Positions 10,457 through 26,997 of a stretch of 44,634 bases of DNA are shown piece by piece; positions within the stretch are counted from its first letter, which is position 1; each line of letters starts with the position of its first letter. The notes beneath the pieces are model-generated. The model was not told the origin of the DNA. It searched no databases and was given only the letters and a program-made list of their open reading frames with translations. A program made the position numbers and the translations under genes. The stretch comes from a virus: IMG/VR virus record IMGVR_UViG_3300036820_000031, positions 1 to 44,634 of that record, one strand, 5' to 3'.

Positions 10457-12010
10457 ATGGGCTTTAAGACGCCCGAGGATATCGCCAACCGAGCCTTGCA
10501 GCACTGCGGCGCGAGCCTGATCGTCACCTTGCAGGATGACGATAAGGGTGCCCAGCAAATTGCGCAGTGCTATGATGGACTGCGCCGGGCCGAGCTCCGC
10601 CGTAACGTGTGGACTTTCGCGGTGAAGAAGGCAGTTCTTTACCCTCTCAATACGTCTCTGACGAACCTGCCGATCGGCACTGCCACTGCTTCGCCCACGA
10701 CACCGGCCACGCTAACGCAAAGCCTGCCGACGCTGAAGCTTATCGCGCAGCCGTGGAGCGCCGCTCAGGTATATCCGTTCGGCAGAGTGGTGTCATATGG
10801 TGGCAGCGTGTGGCTGTCCACTGCGACCACCAGCGCGAACCAGCAGCCGGGCCTCGACGCCAGCACGAATTGGGATACCTACTTCGGATCCAAGGTCGTG
10901 GTGCCATATGACCCCACCGTAGCCTACTACTTCGGCGATCTGGTCTACGTTGCGGATGGCCCCGCGACGCTGGTGTTTTCGTCCCTGGAGAACAGCAACG
11001 GCAGCACCAACAATGCAGCCACCGGAACGGTATCTAACAACCCGCTGAACCCGGCAACGTGGTCCAGCGCGGTAACCTACGGCGTCGGCTCCGTCGTGTT
11101 GGACGCAGCCGGCTTCGCATGGTATAGCCGCATCAGCAACAATGTGAACCTTCAGCCGGGTGTCTACGGCGCGTGGTCGTCGGCGCCAACCTATGTGACT
11201 GGGGCGTTGGTGATCGCCACCGATGGGCTGCTGTATCAGGCAGCGACCGGCGGCAACAACCAGAACCCCGCCAATGGTGCCAGCCCGTCCTACTGGACTG
11301 CGCTAGGAGCCCCCGGTTCCTGGCCGATGTGGAACACGAACACGACCTACGCCAAGGCCGCGGTCGTGATGGGCAGCGACGGTATGCTCTACCAGGCGGT
11401 GCAGGCCGCCAACACGGGCCACCAGCCGGTCGGTGCCGCCTACAACCCGAATACCCCGGCTACCAACTGGTGGGTGCCGCTCGGCCAGCAGGCGTCGTGG
11501 GTGGCCAACTTCAACGCTCCTGTGACCAACGCGTCGTGGTTGAACCAATACGCGACCCTGGACATGGTGAACATTGCCTATCCGATCGGCGCCGGCCCGT
11601 CGCAGCAGGAGTTCACCAAGAACGTATTCATGCTACCGCACGGCTATCTACGGCAGGCTCCGCAAGACCCTAAGCGCGGTAGCATGTCCTTCCTCGGCGC
11701 CCCAAGCGGCATGCAATACAGCGATTGGGAGCTTGATGGCGACTGCATCATCTCGCAGCAGGCGTATCCCATCATTCTGCGCTTCGTGGCTGACGTGACC
11801 CAGGTGTCCAAGATGGATGACATGTTCTGCGAAGGGCTTGGCGCTCGCGTCGCAATGGAGGTGTGCGAGACGTTGACCCAGAGCGGCAGCAAGCTGGGCG
11901 CGATCGGCGCCGTCTACAAGAAGTTCATGGACGATGCGCGCACCGTCAACGGCATTGAACAGGGAGCGACCGAACCCCCCGTAGACGACTGGATCGCTTG
12001 CCGGGTGTAG
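10457..12010 (+). CDS. Tail tubular protein A (gp11-like) with carbohydrate-binding-like inserts
   Basis: 517 residues. The first 65 (IANRALQHCGASLIV, RRAELRRNVWTFAVKKAVL) and the last 165 (FMLPHGYLRQAPQDP, GLGARVAMEVCETLTQSGSK) match the adaptor that joins portal and nozzle in T7-like tails. Between them, about residues 99-345, lie five repeats of the pattern W-x-Y-x-x-G-x-V, then Y, then P and W, as in carbohydrate-binding modules of family 5/12: about 99-148, 150-206, 202-240, 240-284 and 291-343. T7 gp11 has about 196 residues, so the insertion more than doubles the protein. The modules may face outward and hold the host surface sugar. Confidence 0.83.
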   Translation: MGFKTPEDIANRALQHCGASLIVTLQDDDKGAQQIAQCYDGLRRAELRRNVWTFAVKKAVLYPLNTSLTNLPIGTATASPTTPATLTQSLPTLKLIAQPWSAAQVYPFGRVVSYGGSVWLSTATTSANQQPGLDASTNWDTYFGSKVVVPYDPTVAYYFGDLVYVADGPATLVFSSLENSNGSTNNAATGTVSNNPLNPATWSSAVTYGVGSVVLDAAGFAWYSRISNNVNLQPGVYGAWSSAPTYVTGALVIATDGLLYQAATGGNNQNPANGASPSYWTALGAPGSWPMWNTNTTYAKAAVVMGSDGMLYQAVQAANTGHQPVGAAYNPNTPATNWWVPLGQQASWVANFNAPVTNASWLNQYATLDMVNIAYPIGAGPSQQEFTKNVFMLPHGYLRQAPQDPKRGSMSFLGAPSGMQYSDWELDGDCIISQQAYPIILRFVADVTQVSKMDDMFCEGLGARVAMEVCETLTQSGSKLGAIGAVYKKFMDDARTVNGIEQGATEPPVDDWIACRV

Positions 12011-12012
12011 CC

Positions 12013-15000
12013 ATGCCCGACGCCTCTCTTCTGCAAGCGTCCTTCCTTGGTGGAGAATGGTCTCCATTCGCGCAGGGCCGCGTCGATCATCCGCAGTATC
12101 GCTCGGCCATGTCAACCTGCCTAAATGCAATGCCGGTGGAGGAAGGCGCCTGCCCGCGCCGGCCCGGCTTCAACTTCATCTGCACCACTCGCAACGGGGC
12201 GGTTGGCCGCGTGCTGGACTTCAACGTCACCGACCAGGCGGCGTTCCGCGTGGAACTTACTGCCGGCCACCTGCGCATGTTGTGCGGGTCCGGCGGCGTG
12301 TGGGGCCTCGTCTATGATAGCTCGGCATCGGTTGTAAGCGTTTCGCTGGACAACCCGGCCATCGTTACAGTTGCCGGTGCCACCACCTGGCAATCGGAGG
12401 ACCAAGTCCAATTCTTGTTCCAGAGCGGAACCGTTCAGAGTGGCGCCATATTGCGCAACCGGCAATTTGGCATATCGGTATTGAACGCGTCGCAGGTATC
12501 CCTATACGATCCTGCTACGGGAGATGGGGTTGACGGGGCTGCGGTTAACTGGGACCCGGCCACCGTAGCAACGGTTGGTCATATCCTGGACCTTCCGACA
12601 CTCTACGCCGAGGCGGACTTGCAGAAGGTTCGGCTGGTCGTCGCGGCCACGCCGGGCGTCTCCGCAACTGGCCTGGGGCTGCTGCTGCACAATGGCTACG
12701 CGCCGCAGACCCTGGCCCTGACACTGGACGCTACTGGCCCCAACTTCTCTGCCGTCACCCTTACCGCGCAGCAGTTCGAGGATGGCCCCTATCTTGACGC
12801 GGTGCCAAATTCACAGATGACGCCGAGCGGCAGCGGAGCGGACTACCTCGCCCTGTTCACACCCTGGGGCAATACCTACAATGACACGCCAAATTGGGGA
12901 AACACTGCCGGGCAGTTGGTAACCTGGGGCGGCTACAACTTCGTCTGCATCCAATCGCACGGCAGCCTCGGTGCCGACTTCAACTATTGGTTTTCCACGT
13001 TCCCCACGTCCAGCGACTACTACACGCTGGTTACGGCGACTGCACCGTTCTCCGCATACAACGCTGATACGGCCTATGTTGTTGGCGACGTGGCTACTTA
13101 CAGCAGTCTGACCTATGTGTGCATACAGAACGGCACCGGAGAAGAACCCGACACGGCCACGACCTACTGGACATCGGTAGTCCTGGCGTCGTCTGGCTTG
13201 GGCGGCACGGTGAGCCTGCAACTGTCCTACCTGGAGTGGGGCAGCACCACCAGCTATTCCATTGGGAGCTTCGTCAGTTATGGCGGGTTCGCATACCAGT
13301 CCCTGGCCGCTGTGAACTACGGCCAGGAGCCTGACGTTTCCCCGTCCTACTGGACTGCGATCAATGACGGCGGCGCAGTCGGGCCGCAAGGGTTCACCAC
13401 CGCCAACATCGGGCAGTTGGTGCGCCTGCTGTCCCAGCCTGCCGCGTGGGCTGCCGGCACAGGCTATTCAGCCGGCGAGACGGTAACCTACAACGCCGCC
13501 TACTACGTGGCGCAGGCCAGCACTACTGGCAACGAACCGGACACCAGCCTGACGGACTGGCTGCCGACCACAAGCCTGTCCACCGCCAGTTGGTTCTACG
13601 CGCAGATCATCACCGTCGTAAACGACAACAACATCGTCGTGAACATGCTGGACGGCGACCTGTTGAACTCCAACCCGATCACGACCTGGCAGCTTGGTGC
13701 CTATGGCGGGGCAGTCGGATACCCCGGCAACGGCTGCTACTATGAGGGCCGCTTGTGGTTGGGCGGCGCGTTGCCGAACCGGCTGGACAGCAGCAACAGT
13801 AATGACTTCTTCAACTTCGCGCCGACCGGGCCGGACGGCACCGTGGGCGACGCGAACTCCGTCAGTGCAATTTTCAACAGCAACGACCAGAACGCCATAT
13901 ATTGGGTGGAGCCGTGTTCCTCGGGGCTGGTGTGTGGCACGAAGGATGGGGAGTGGCTGGTGCAGGCCAGCACCTTGAACGATCCGATCACGCCGACCAG
14001 CATACAGGTCCACCGCTACACCAAGATCGGCGACGCCGACGTGCTGCCCTGCCACACGCCCCTGACACTGGTGTTCGTCCACAAGTATGGCCGCATGCTA
14101 TTCGAATATTTCCCCGATGTGTTTTCGGGCCGAATGACGGCGCCGGTCCTGAACAGCTTCAGCAAGCACCTGACCGTTGGTGGTGTGCAGGAGATCGCCT
14201 ACCAGTCGGAGATGGCTCCGGTTGTGTGGGGCCGCACAGGCGACGGTGCGCTGATCGGCTGGACCTACCGCCGCGTGAGCCAGTTCAGCACTGAGGAGCC
14301 GAAGTTTGTTGGTGCGCACCGGCATACGCTCGGGTCGGGCCGGCTCGTGGAGAGCCTGTGCGTCGGCGCCGACGCGAGCCTGACGCTGGATACCTTGACG
14401 ATCGTCAGCAACGACCCGGCCACGAACATCCGCCATATTGAGGTGATGACGCCGCTTATGGACCCGAGCGACCCGGTAACGTCGTCATGGTTCGTGGACG
14501 ATGCTGTATCACCTAGCGGTATACAGGTGACGACGCAAAGTGGTGTGGCCGGGGTCATGCTCTACGGCTTGTGGCACCTGAACGGCCAGACCGTGAGCGC
14601 CGTGCTTGGCGGCTTCGACTGCGGTGATATCCTGGTAACAAACGGAGCCATGTTCGTGCCGTTCGGCGCGGACCCGGCCGGGCTGGTGACCCAGACGACG
14701 CTACAGTCTTTCAGCACCGGCACGTGGGGCAGCCTGGGCACCACCATGGGGATCGCCACCTACAGCGGTGCGGCGCCCACAACCGAACAGGATACGATCC
14801 AAATGTGGACGTTCCCTGTGCGTAACTTTGCGGGCGTGGACGGCAGCACCTTGATAGTGGATTGGGCGAACAACCGCGCCTTTGCCGCCTCTCAGGACAA
14901 TGGGTTCCGCACCTTCAGCGTGACCGGCGCGGCCGAGACATCGGAAGCAAATTTCGTGAATGTTGGGGGCGACGTTGTTCCCCAACCGTTGAACAGTTCC

Positions 15001-16347
15001 CAAGCCTGGACGTATGGCCTGGACGGGTATATTTACGCCCAATACACGGGGGGATATGCCAAGATCGATCCGGGTTCCTGGACAACGATAACGACCTTTG
15101 GAACGGACGAGGACACCTACACCCCAAACGCGGCCTTCATCCCGCCGAGCTCTTCCCTGGCCACGGTGAGGGCTGGGGCCAATTACCTGGTATGTGGATA
15201 CAGTCGCGGGTCTGACCCCGTGTCATGTGGTATCACGGTCATTGACACCGATACCATGGCCTGGGTTATCGGGAGCGCGTTCACCGGAACGCACGCCCCC
15301 ACCGCGCGCGTGCTGTCAATGGTGACCGTCACCCAGGGATCAGCCGGCGGCCTGGTTATTTCGATGGACACCCCATACGGGGTGATTACCGATCAACTGA
15401 CGTTCTACTCCACGGCCATCACAGCCGCGGGCGCGGTCACAACTCAAACGATAGGGAATATCCCCCTCGCCTCGATTGATCCACAATGGGTTGAGGTTTC
15501 CGCCACGGTTGGCCCCTTCGTTGACACGACCGACAACAACCTTATCGTCGGGGTGACCAACGGGGCCGCGGGTGCAGTGCACCCGTGCTATTTGATGAAG
15601 GTCAATACCGCGAATGCCAGCATCATCTGGAAGACGGCTGTGGCCGAGCTTCCCGCGAGTTTCGTCGGTGTGCAATACAGCCGCGTGCAGAGCGAGCTTT
15701 ACGCCTACGTGGGCGACACGACGGTGTATATCTGGAACCTCGGGACTGGCACCTTTGAAACTGCTGCTTGCAACCGGGACGGCAACCACGCCGACGCCCA
15801 GGTGTCAGACGCTACTACCGGGACCATCATCCTATATGGTGGCTACACGAGCGAAACCGGCAGGCCCGCGCAGGCGCCGGGATCGCCGACCAGCTTCACG
15901 GACCACTTCGCCACCTTGACCGTAGGCACGTTCGCGCCGGCCGCCGGGAGTGTCGTCACCACCAGCAGTTCAACGCTTCCGGGCGTCGTAGGCTTCACCT
16001 ACACCACGCAAGGGCAGCCGGTGCGCCCAGCGCTCCCACAAGAGGCCGGCGCGGCCAACGGCCCGGCGCAGGGCAAAACCAGGCGCAGCCACATGATGAA
16101 CTGCCTCCTGGCCGGGGCGGTCTACGGGACCTTGTTCTTCGGCACCGTGTTTACGAAGCTGCGCGGCGCCTACTTCAAGTCCGCAGGCGGTATCCCGGTG
16201 CCTACCACGACCTTGTATTCAGGGGTCTATTGGTCTACCTTGGAGGACGACTACAGCTTTGAGGGTGCGCCATGCTGGCAGATCAGCCGTCCTTTGCCAG
16301 CCCATGTGGTTTCCCTCGGGGCGTTCCTGAACACCCAGGATCGTTAA
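12013..16347 (+). CDS. Giant tail nozzle protein (gp12-like) with binding modules
   Basis: 1,444 residues, far longer than T7 gp12 (about 794). The start (SFLGGEWSPFAQGRVDHPQYR, CPRRPGFNF) and the parts around residues 575-790 (YYEGRLWLGG, WLVQASTLNDPITPTS) are typical of podoviral nozzle proteins. Four carbohydrate-binding-like modules lie at about 293-327, 344-388, 407-450 and 477-518. A second beta-rich insertion at about 915-1325 resembles repeat beta-propeller blades (for example TTVYIWNLGTGTFE), after which the nozzle fold returns (HMMNCLLAGAVYGTLFFG). ATG 12013 lies two bases after the tube gene stop. Confidence 0.83.
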   Translation: MPDASLLQASFLGGEWSPFAQGRVDHPQYRSAMSTCLNAMPVEEGACPRRPGFNFICTTRNGAVGRVLDFNVTDQAAFRVELTAGHLRMLCGSGGVWGLVYDSSASVVSVSLDNPAIVTVAGATTWQSEDQVQFLFQSGTVQSGAILRNRQFGISVLNASQVSLYDPATGDGVDGAAVNWDPATVATVGHILDLPTLYAEADLQKVRLVVAATPGVSATGLGLLLHNGYAPQTLALTLDATGPNFSAVTLTAQQFEDGPYLDAVPNSQMTPSGSGADYLALFTPWGNTYNDTPNWGNTAGQLVTWGGYNFVCIQSHGSLGADFNYWFSTFPTSSDYYTLVTATAPFSAYNADTAYVVGDVATYSSLTYVCIQNGTGEEPDTATTYWTSVVLASSGLGGTVSLQLSYLEWGSTTSYSIGSFVSYGGFAYQSLAAVNYGQEPDVSPSYWTAINDGGAVGPQGFTTANIGQLVRLLSQPAAWAAGTGYSAGETVTYNAAYYVAQASTTGNEPDTSLTDWLPTTSLSTASWFYAQIITVVNDNNIVVNMLDGDLLNSNPITTWQLGAYGGAVGYPGNGCYYEGRLWLGGALPNRLDSSNSNDFFNFAPTGPDGTVGDANSVSAIFNSNDQNAIYWVEPCSSGLVCGTKDGEWLVQASTLNDPITPTSIQVHRYTKIGDADVLPCHTPLTLVFVHKYGRMLFEYFPDVFSGRMTAPVLNSFSKHLTVGGVQEIAYQSEMAPVVWGRTGDGALIGWTYRRVSQFSTEEPKFVGAHRHTLGSGRLVESLCVGADASLTLDTLTIVSNDPATNIRHIEVMTPLMDPSDPVTSSWFVDDAVSPSGIQVTTQSGVAGVMLYGLWHLNGQTVSAVLGGFDCGDILVTNGAMFVPFGADPAGLVTQTTLQSFSTGTWGSLGTTMGIATYSGAAPTTEQDTIQMWTFPVRNFAGVDGSTLIVDWANNRAFAASQDNGFRTFSVTGAAETSEANFVNVGGDVVPQPLNSSQAWTYGLDGYIYAQYTGGYAKIDPGSWTTITTFGTDEDTYTPNAAFIPPSSSLATVRAGANYLVCGYSRGSDPVSCGITVIDTDTMAWVIGSAFTGTHAPTARVLSMVTVTQGSAGGLVISMDTPYGVITDQLTFYSTAITAAGAVTTQTIGNIPLASIDPQWVEVSATVGPFVDTTDNNLIVGVTNGAAGAVHPCYLMKVNTANASIIWKTAVAELPASFVGVQYSRVQSELYAYVGDTTVYIWNLGTGTFETAACNRDGNHADAQVSDATTGTIILYGGYTSETGRPAQAPGSPTSFTDHFATLTVGTFAPAAGSVVTTSSSTLPGVVGFTYTTQGQPVRPALPQEAGAANGPAQGKTRRSHMMNCLLAGAVYGTLFFGTVFTKLRGAYFKSAGGIPVPTTTLYSGVYWSTLEDDYSFEGAPCWQISRPLPAHVVSLGAFLNTQDR

Positions 16348-26016: not shown

Positions 26017-26039
26017 TGCAGTCTAGGACTGCACTTTTT
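26017..26039 (+). terminator. Intrinsic terminator closing the late operon
   Basis: TGCAGTC-TAG-GACTGCA (26017-26033) is a perfect seven-base-pair hairpin followed by CTTTTT. It would end rightward transcription. The integrase stop codon (26023-26025 on the other strand) is inside the hairpin, so it may also be a leftward end, although the A-side lacks a U-tract in that direction. Confidence 0.78.
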
Positions 26040-26997
26040 CAGCGTTTGTAATTTTTGTCACATTTGACAACTTTTCCACCGCCGAACGGGCCAAACGAGC
26101 CTGGTCCGCCCCAAGAGTATATTCCTGCACCATGCGCAGTGATTGGTGTCCCGTAATGGATGCAATCTCATGCGGCGTGGAGCCGGCATTGGCAAGATTG
26201 ACGGCGGCCAGACGGCGCAGCCCATGGACGTTCAGGCCGCGTGGCAGGCCGATGCGCCACAGCGAATGCGACAGGTCACGGGACAGGTGATCCGCGGTCC
26301 AAGGGCGGCCACGGGAGTTGCGCAGGATGGGGCCACCTGAGCCTGGCTCGCGCCACAGATCGAGTTCCGCCTGCAAGCTCAGGTGACACGGTATCACCAA
26401 CGACGCCCCGGTCTTCTCCTGCACTACCGCGATAGCGCAGCCGTCGTAGGCGGACCACGGCATCGCGCATAGATCGCCCCGTCGCTGGCCTGTGAAGAGC
26501 GCCAGGATCACCACACGGCGCAGGTGTTCCGGGAGTGCCTCCAAGGCGCGCTCGGCCTCGGCGGGCGTCCAGGTGCGGTGATGCGACCCCGCCAGCAGCT
26601 TTATCCGGTGCGCGGGGTTATTCTCCAAACGGTCTCGGCCAACCGCCCAGCCGAACGCGGCCGAGACGGACCGGATGAAAGTATTGGCCGCGCCGTGACC
26701 CCGCGCCTCAGCGATGGCGTCGCGGACGGTCAATAGATCGCGGCGTCGGATGGCGCGGAACTGGAGGTGCCCGATTTCCTCCATTGGACGCAGCCCGATG
26801 GTGTAGGTGGCCCGGCTGCGCGGGGCCAGCGCCGCCCACTCCGGGCTATGCTGGTAGTCCCGTATCAGGGCACGGACACTGTTAGCCCGGACGTGAGACG
26901 GTCGCGGCTTGTAGGCGGCGTAGGTGTAGGTCTTAACCGTGCCGTCAGCCAGCGTGTGCTTGACGACGCGGACCTTTCGCTTTGATCGCTTGGGCAA
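26023..26997 (-). CDS. int: Tyrosine integrase
   Basis: 324 residues. It carries the full catalytic set of tyrosine recombinases: Arg172 in FTGQRRGDL, Lys195 in QEKTGA, His258-x-x-Arg261 in VHGLRRL, His284 in TGHQSL and the nucleophile Tyr293 in QEYTLG. The N-terminal part (residues 30-130) has the SAM-like core-binding pattern. It indicates a temperate phage that recombines attP with a host attB. The start is TTG 26997, which lies 53 bases inside the excisionase gene, so translation is probably coupled to xis. Integration target unknown. Confidence 0.93.
   Translation of the reverse strand: MPKRSKRKVRVVKHTLADGTVKTYTYAAYKPRPSHVRANSVRALIRDYQHSPEWAALAPRSRATYTIGLRPMEEIGHLQFRAIRRRDLLTVRDAIAEARGHGAANTFIRSVSAAFGWAVGRDRLENNPAHRIKLLAGSHHRTWTPAEAERALEALPEHLRRVVILALFTGQRRGDLCAMPWSAYDGCAIAVVQEKTGASLVIPCHLSLQAELDLWREPGSGGPILRNSRGRPWTADHLSRDLSHSLWRIGLPRGLNVHGLRRLAAVNLANAGSTPHEIASITGHQSLRMVQEYTLGADQARLARSAVEKLSNVTKITNAEKVQS

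Follow-up and report, generated by a model that had tools for sequence, protein, structure and literature searches.

Can the body of a short phage tail itself hold on to host sugars? The question is raised by two adjacent genes, for a gp11-like tail adaptor (P0001) and a gp12-like tail nozzle (P0002), in the virus record IMGVR_UViG_3300036820_000031, whose 44,634 nt were analyzed as a whole and are here called the window. Both ring proteins contain copies of a small module resembling carbohydrate-binding module (CBM) family 5/12. An earlier note, made from the sequence alone, had counted five copies in the adaptor and four in the nozzle, suggested that the tail body binds host polysaccharide, and proposed that the repeats may have spread from one gene to the other. 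Comparison of the sequences with those of relatives indicates that the modules are genuine and old and that purifying selection maintains them; that they bind host polysaccharide is plausible.

CBM5/12-like modules in two tail-ring proteins

P0001 was identified as a T7-like gp11 adaptor, since sequence, predicted fold and gene order all fit. Its match to PHROG 394 is best over the C-terminal core; the core as a whole comprises residues 1-66 and about 361-517, separated by a module insert of ~300 aa, and the gene lies directly upstream of the nozzle gene. The AlphaFold model of the adaptor (mean predicted local distance difference test score, pLDDT, of 83) was matched by Foldseek to LME-1 (9efk), the Carin1 connector (8ck1_E), KP32 TTPA (5mu4) and T7 gp11 (7box). 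P0002 is a T7-like gp12 nozzle by sequence and predicted fold. The Carin1 nozzle (8ck1_A) matches it at 2.6e-19 by sequence and, with the modelled nozzle fragment 1-935, at 4.4e-29 by fold, and the same fragment also matches LME-1 and T7 gp12. The open reading frame (ORF) of P0002 opens at TTG 11998, and the starts of relatives correspond to the ATG at 12013. The gene identities of the earlier note are borne out by the matches to PHROG 394 and 376 and by the structure matches, and both genes and the motif lie where it placed them.

Table 1. Features of the window, with coordinates in nucleotides of the 44,634-nt stretch (HMM, hidden Markov model)
Feature	Residues	Coordinates	Strand	Evidence
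gp11-like tail adaptor P0001	517 aa	10457-12010	+	PHROG 394 tail protein, 3.6e-31
Module A1	P0001 97-140	10745-10876	+	family HMM 35.3 bits; CBM_5_12 at 10754-10873, 1.7e-5
Module A2 (divergent, weakest)	P0001 148-190	10898-11026	+	family HMM 20.5 bits
Module A3	P0001 197-236	11045-11164	+	family HMM 39.7 bits
Module A4	P0001 238-283	11168-11305	+	family HMM 29.9 bits
Module A5	P0001 290-342 (HMM match 290-327)	11324-11482	+	family HMM 29.1 bits
gp12-like tail nozzle P0002		12013-16347	+	PHROG 376 tail protein, 1e-70
Module B1 (degenerate)	P0002 299-334	12892-12999	+	CBM_5_12 19.1 bits, 7.6e-5; family HMM 0 bits
Module B2	P0002 351-394	13048-13179	+	family HMM 29.7 bits; CBM_5_12 1.1e-5
Module B3	P0002 409-455	13222-13362	+	family HMM 44.5 bits
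Module B4	P0002 478-525	13429-13572	+	family HMM 40.1 bits; CBM_5_12 2.1e-5
Additional nozzle insert, ~400 aa	P0002 936-1340	14803-16017	+	weak Kelch-like signal
Candidate tail fibre	569 aa	22590-24299		YadA-head repeats, 1.6e-7
Integrase		26023-26997	-	

To find the modules, a family HMM was seeded with one nozzle module (P0002 413-455) and iterated over the window and relatives. Although it started from a single unit, it recovered eight modules in the window at 20.5-44.5 bits, of which the adaptor holds five and the nozzle three, so the units are indeed alike; the top score among 1000 shuffles of the inserts was 10.7 bits, and the remaining frames of the 44.6-kb window were free of modules. 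A chance origin of the matches was ruled out by these shuffles together with the module-free ring proteins of annotated phages, which served as negative controls. The earlier count of nine therefore stands for eight clear modules, the ninth (B1) being degenerate: it scores zero with the family HMM and matches ChiA1 (1ed7) weakly (E 0.071). A similarly degenerate unit occupies the B1 position in a related nozzle (L009).

The proposed likeness to CBM5/12 was upheld by several profile searches. A genome-wide Pfam search gave five CBM_5_12 matches, every one within P0001 or P0002. The nozzle matched over four stretches (5e-13, 49.3 bits, cut-off 26.2) and the adaptor weakly, below that cut-off, over two (0.013, 15.9 bits); B3 by itself is barely over the cut-off, at 26.3 bits. 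Across relatives, CBM_5_12 was detected at E<=0.01 in 34 of 73 adaptors (best 2.8e-12), and 30 of 36 diverse modules matched it at E<=1. When the module profile was compared with the PDB, the best match was the CBM12 of ChiA1 (1.3e-6), followed mainly by chitinases and chitin deacetylases. CBM5/12, ChiA1_BD or ChiC_BD names are already attached to some database entries of viral proteins with similar structures.

Structure prediction points the same way. Foldseek superimposed the adaptor model on the chitin-binding domain of ChiC (2d49) with a root-mean-square deviation of 1.3 A over 46 columns and a template modelling score (TMt) of 0.73, in line with the CBM-like small beta fold expected of such modules. 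In the nozzle model, confidence is high for B3 (pLDDT >90) and B4 (about 90); for B1 and B2 (pLDDT <50) that model gave no structural confirmation of the fold. An alignment of ~440 modules displays a near-invariant framework, with positions 7, 13, 27 and 47 aromatic in about 100% and Pro 39 in 100%. The modules are thus predicted to adopt a small beta fold with the core aromatic framework of CBM5/12. They share the W-Y-G-V-Y-P-W pattern with that family (PF02839; ChiA1, ChiC) and differ from it in the conserved Ser and Asn after the third aromatic, and in being located in virion rings, whereas CBM5/12 is found on enzymes.

Insertion sites, distribution and history of the modules

Six annotated relatives encode short gp11 proteins (190-222 aa) and have no detectable module in either the adaptor or the nozzle. 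Aligned with such module-free relatives, the modules map to three loops. A single adaptor loop takes five in tandem, and the nozzle has two sites, with three modules and then one. In the adaptor, the N-terminal helices and the first strand precede the insertion site and the remaining core follows it; tblastn accordingly breaks P0001 into N- and C-terminal pieces. In the nozzle, B1-B3 are placed between a DGPYLD segment and a strand of the pattern DVGR.IR, and B4 in the loop immediately past that strand. By these alignments the modules are inserts in conserved ring cores, absent from the module-free relatives.

At the B4 site, nozzles of the Carin1, BcepC6B and epsilon15 type carry a domain of the pattern W..Y..P.H..G..WDG. 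This domain can be brought into register with B4 by profile alignment, weakly (hhalign E 0.007, probability 5%), and Pfam did not detect CBM_5_12 in the Carin1 or BcepC6B nozzle. Its homology to the modules, which would make it a distant CBM5/12 relative in well-studied phages, is only suggested by this register. The domain is common to Carin1, BcepC6B, phiV10, epsilon15 and Xanthomonas phages (L091, L092, L158-L164).

Because whole-gp11 queries could favour module-rich proteins, a second retrieval of adaptor relatives used only the C-terminal core as query. It gave 55 non-redundant adaptors, and every one carries modules, one to seven each. Nozzle relatives were gathered with alignments, a single-sequence search of viral contigs with P0002 having given no matches; 45 of the 46 core-retrieved nozzles carry one to three modules and one has zero. 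The only adaptor with a single module (L103, 5278-6471) is preceded by an adjacent upstream ORF that holds one more; this two-ORF arrangement may be a real gene split or a sequencing error.

The history of the modules was traced in a tree of 407 units. The nearest neighbour of a module lies within the same gene in 400 cases; a module from the neighbouring gene of its own genome is never the nearest. Gene labels change 12 times on the tree, compared with about 101 after shuffling, and position labels 12 times, compared with 161. With about 47 columns behind the tree, its individual nodes are weak and these label counts are the result. Both counts contradict recent copying from gene to gene, and the earlier suggestion of spread between the neighbours is not supported; with no signal of such recent copying, any sharing predates the family. 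Within the adaptor gene, A3 of the window groups with the A1-type modules of relatives, which suggests some shuffling there. Purifying selection shows in the ratios of nonsynonymous to synonymous substitution (dN/dS), which were 0.06-0.36 for the insert (13 measurable pairs) and 0.02-0.25 for the core (11 pairs).

Genome setting

The window is a single virus record bearing a 127-bp direct terminal repeat and so probably represents the complete genome. The tail genes are preceded by those for terminase, a portal-type protein and capsid, and the opposite arm encodes an integrase, DNA polymerase A, a helicase and a primase; with its integrase and terminal repeats, this podophage is probably temperate. 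No tRNA genes were found in the window. One scan of genome contigs for a host had a single match among bacterial genomes, a contig of 6.3 kb from a Planctomycetota metagenome-assembled genome (L094), too short to be trusted as a host assignment. This contig encodes an adaptor with four modules, a nozzle with two and an upstream fibre-like ORF.

The nozzle contains a further insert (residues 936-1340), which is missing from two relatives (L007, L008) and partially matched in others (L011/L013/L014, L053/L054); judged by its sequence, it is perhaps a second beta-propeller. Another podophage nozzle (L088, 2501-5053) matches 'E1 ubiquitin-activating enzyme FCCH domain' at 1e-21, a name under which further phage nozzles are deposited; it is likely a misleading annotation.

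Possible roles of the ring modules

We favour avidity-based glycan binding by a module array on the tail rings, a reading that we regard as about evenly balanced between right and wrong. The adaptor and nozzle rings would display their CBM5/12-fold modules outward around the T7-like short tail. If the adaptor is a dodecamer and the nozzle a hexamer, as in T7-like tails, a virion would present about 60 + 24 = 84 modules. Many weak contacts with the repetitive glycans of the host surface or of an exopolysaccharide (EPS) matrix could then keep the phage in place and oriented until its separate candidate fibre meets the specific receptor. Exposure, ring stoichiometry, glycan binding and the role in adsorption are what we infer in this scheme. 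It is favoured by the kinship of the modules with chitin-binding domains in sequence and predicted fold, by a copy number that differs while the core persists, by the purifying selection on the inserts and the lack of detectable modules in the six annotated relatives, by repetition around a symmetric ring and by adsorption precedents in ring proteins. TTPA and TTPB of phage OWB bind Vp0980 of the host and mediate adsorption (PMC7241545), and adsorption to EPS+ lactococci could be restored by evolved Dits that contain carbohydrate-binding domains (PMC10688798); a similar avidity role has been proposed for such Dit rings of siphophages.

Several observations weigh against this reading. One concerns the ligand site. 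In ChiA1, W687 is the tryptophan that grips chitin. Among about 440 modules its column is aromatic in 3% and usually Asn, His or Gln; W687 is the binding aromatic that could be aligned, those of other CBM5/12 members could not. Nothing here thus points to chitin or cellulose binding in the manner of ChiA1, and the modules may bind another ligand. Near this column lie two conserved polar positions (Asn 89%, Ser 86%). In addition, module identity is set by position, which fits a structural role too, and the genome holds a separate fibre candidate with YadA-head repeats. Divergence of the inserts keeps pace with that of the core or modestly exceeds it (identity 0.45 at core 0.55, and 0.82 at core 0.83), and a search for diversifying selection or hypervariability of the inserts found neither, unlike what is seen in a diversifying host-range adhesin.

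The same data lend themselves to a close rival, which we consider quite possible, if short of an even chance: the modules would be a small stable fold for protein-protein contacts, with no sugar ligand, that thickens or locks the rings or forms a socket for a fibre or spike at the adaptor-nozzle junction. It would account for fold-core W, Y and P positions that are near invariant while the W687 column is non-aromatic, for inserts conserved to much the same degree as the ring core, for position-specific module identity, and for the W..Y..P.H..G..WDG domain in the B4 loop of other nozzles. The module profile also matches the N-terminal part of a fibre of Agrobacterium phage 7-7-1 and the Milano spike gp124 (E 0.016-0.028), whose residues 1-175, including two globular domains that wedge into the baseplate, form a tail-binding module (PMC10811340). 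However, the Milano match is marginal and covers 24 residues only, and the similarity to the Carin1 and BcepC6B domain is as weak as its hhalign score. A fixed socket also sits oddly with a copy number of one to seven in the adaptor and zero to three in the nozzle, and the six annotated relatives do without detectable modules.

T7-like tails have the nozzle at their distal end, and the Anabaena contractile injection system is a machine anchored in the cell envelope. A base-plate chain of the latter, All3316 (7b5h), is matched by the module profile at 0.0021. Both points would suit modules that act after attachment and not in first adsorption, binding peptidoglycan or inner glycans and steadying the nozzle at the cell wall while DNA is ejected. 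We think this improbable, as the majority of modules are in the adaptor, the ring closer to the head, nothing ties the modules to peptidoglycan, and the residue with which ChiA1 binds N-acetylglucosamine polymers is not conserved. Least credible by far is a recent recombinational spread of repeats between the adjacent genes without a fixed function: the occurrence of one module family in both neighbours, its variable copy number and the grouping of A3 with A1-type modules would fit, but the nearest-neighbour and label counts and the purifying selection on the inserts speak against it.

Compared with known systems, avidity-based binding by decorated rings has its nearest parallel in the evolved Dit of siphophages (PMC8540738, PMC10688798), where CBM inserts likewise occur in a conserved tail ring protein and insert-free relatives exist. 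The rings described here are an analogue of evolved Dit and not a member, as the ring is not a Dit: the inserts are in a podophage adaptor and nozzle, form tandem arrays in two rings, occur in every sampled adaptor, and have a putative function. The earlier statement that such modules are normally on enzymes or fibres was thus too strong, CBMs being known in virion rings and lectin-like or immunoglobulin (Ig)-like additions in short tails. KP32 TTPA (5MU4), also a gp11-type adaptor, has an additional beta region at residues 57-99, proposed to be lectin-like and absent from T7 gp11 (PMC5440376), in a broadly similar stretch of the adaptor; it is a single region of ~43 residues with no CBM5/12 array, and KP32 TTPA is reported to degrade EPS (PMC5440376), of which P0001 gives no indication. 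The tail of Cobetia phage Carin1 (8CK1) provides the closest solved nozzle and a connector that matches the adaptor, but the 222-aa connector lacks modules and the nozzle has no match to the module HMM, only the distantly similar domain at the B4 site. In phi29-like phages, repeated extra beta domains sit laterally on the short tail and carbohydrate binding has been proposed, as in the six Ig-like domains of gp11 of Acinetobacter phage Phanie (PMC11476376); there, however, the fold is that of Ig and the tail proteins are other ones. No prior description of the present arrangement was found in the literature searched, mostly without subscription journals.

Together, these results bear on how short-tailed phages recognize their hosts. 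Recognition is usually credited to fibres and spikes, and here an uncultured podophage family keeps tandem folds of a sugar-binding type in its rings. In its strongest form, which we hold tentatively and think rather unlikely to be right in full, the podophage tail body would be a first-contact adhesin with some 60-90 CBM-derived modules per tail, in which a polar (Ser/Asn) ligand site replaces the aromatic one, a family-wide trait with a copy number particular to each virus. As a caution, annotating such domains as carbohydrate-binding requires a check of the ligand residues. The arrangement extends the idea of the evolved Dit to podophages and offers a testable case for a role of the short-tail body in adsorption.

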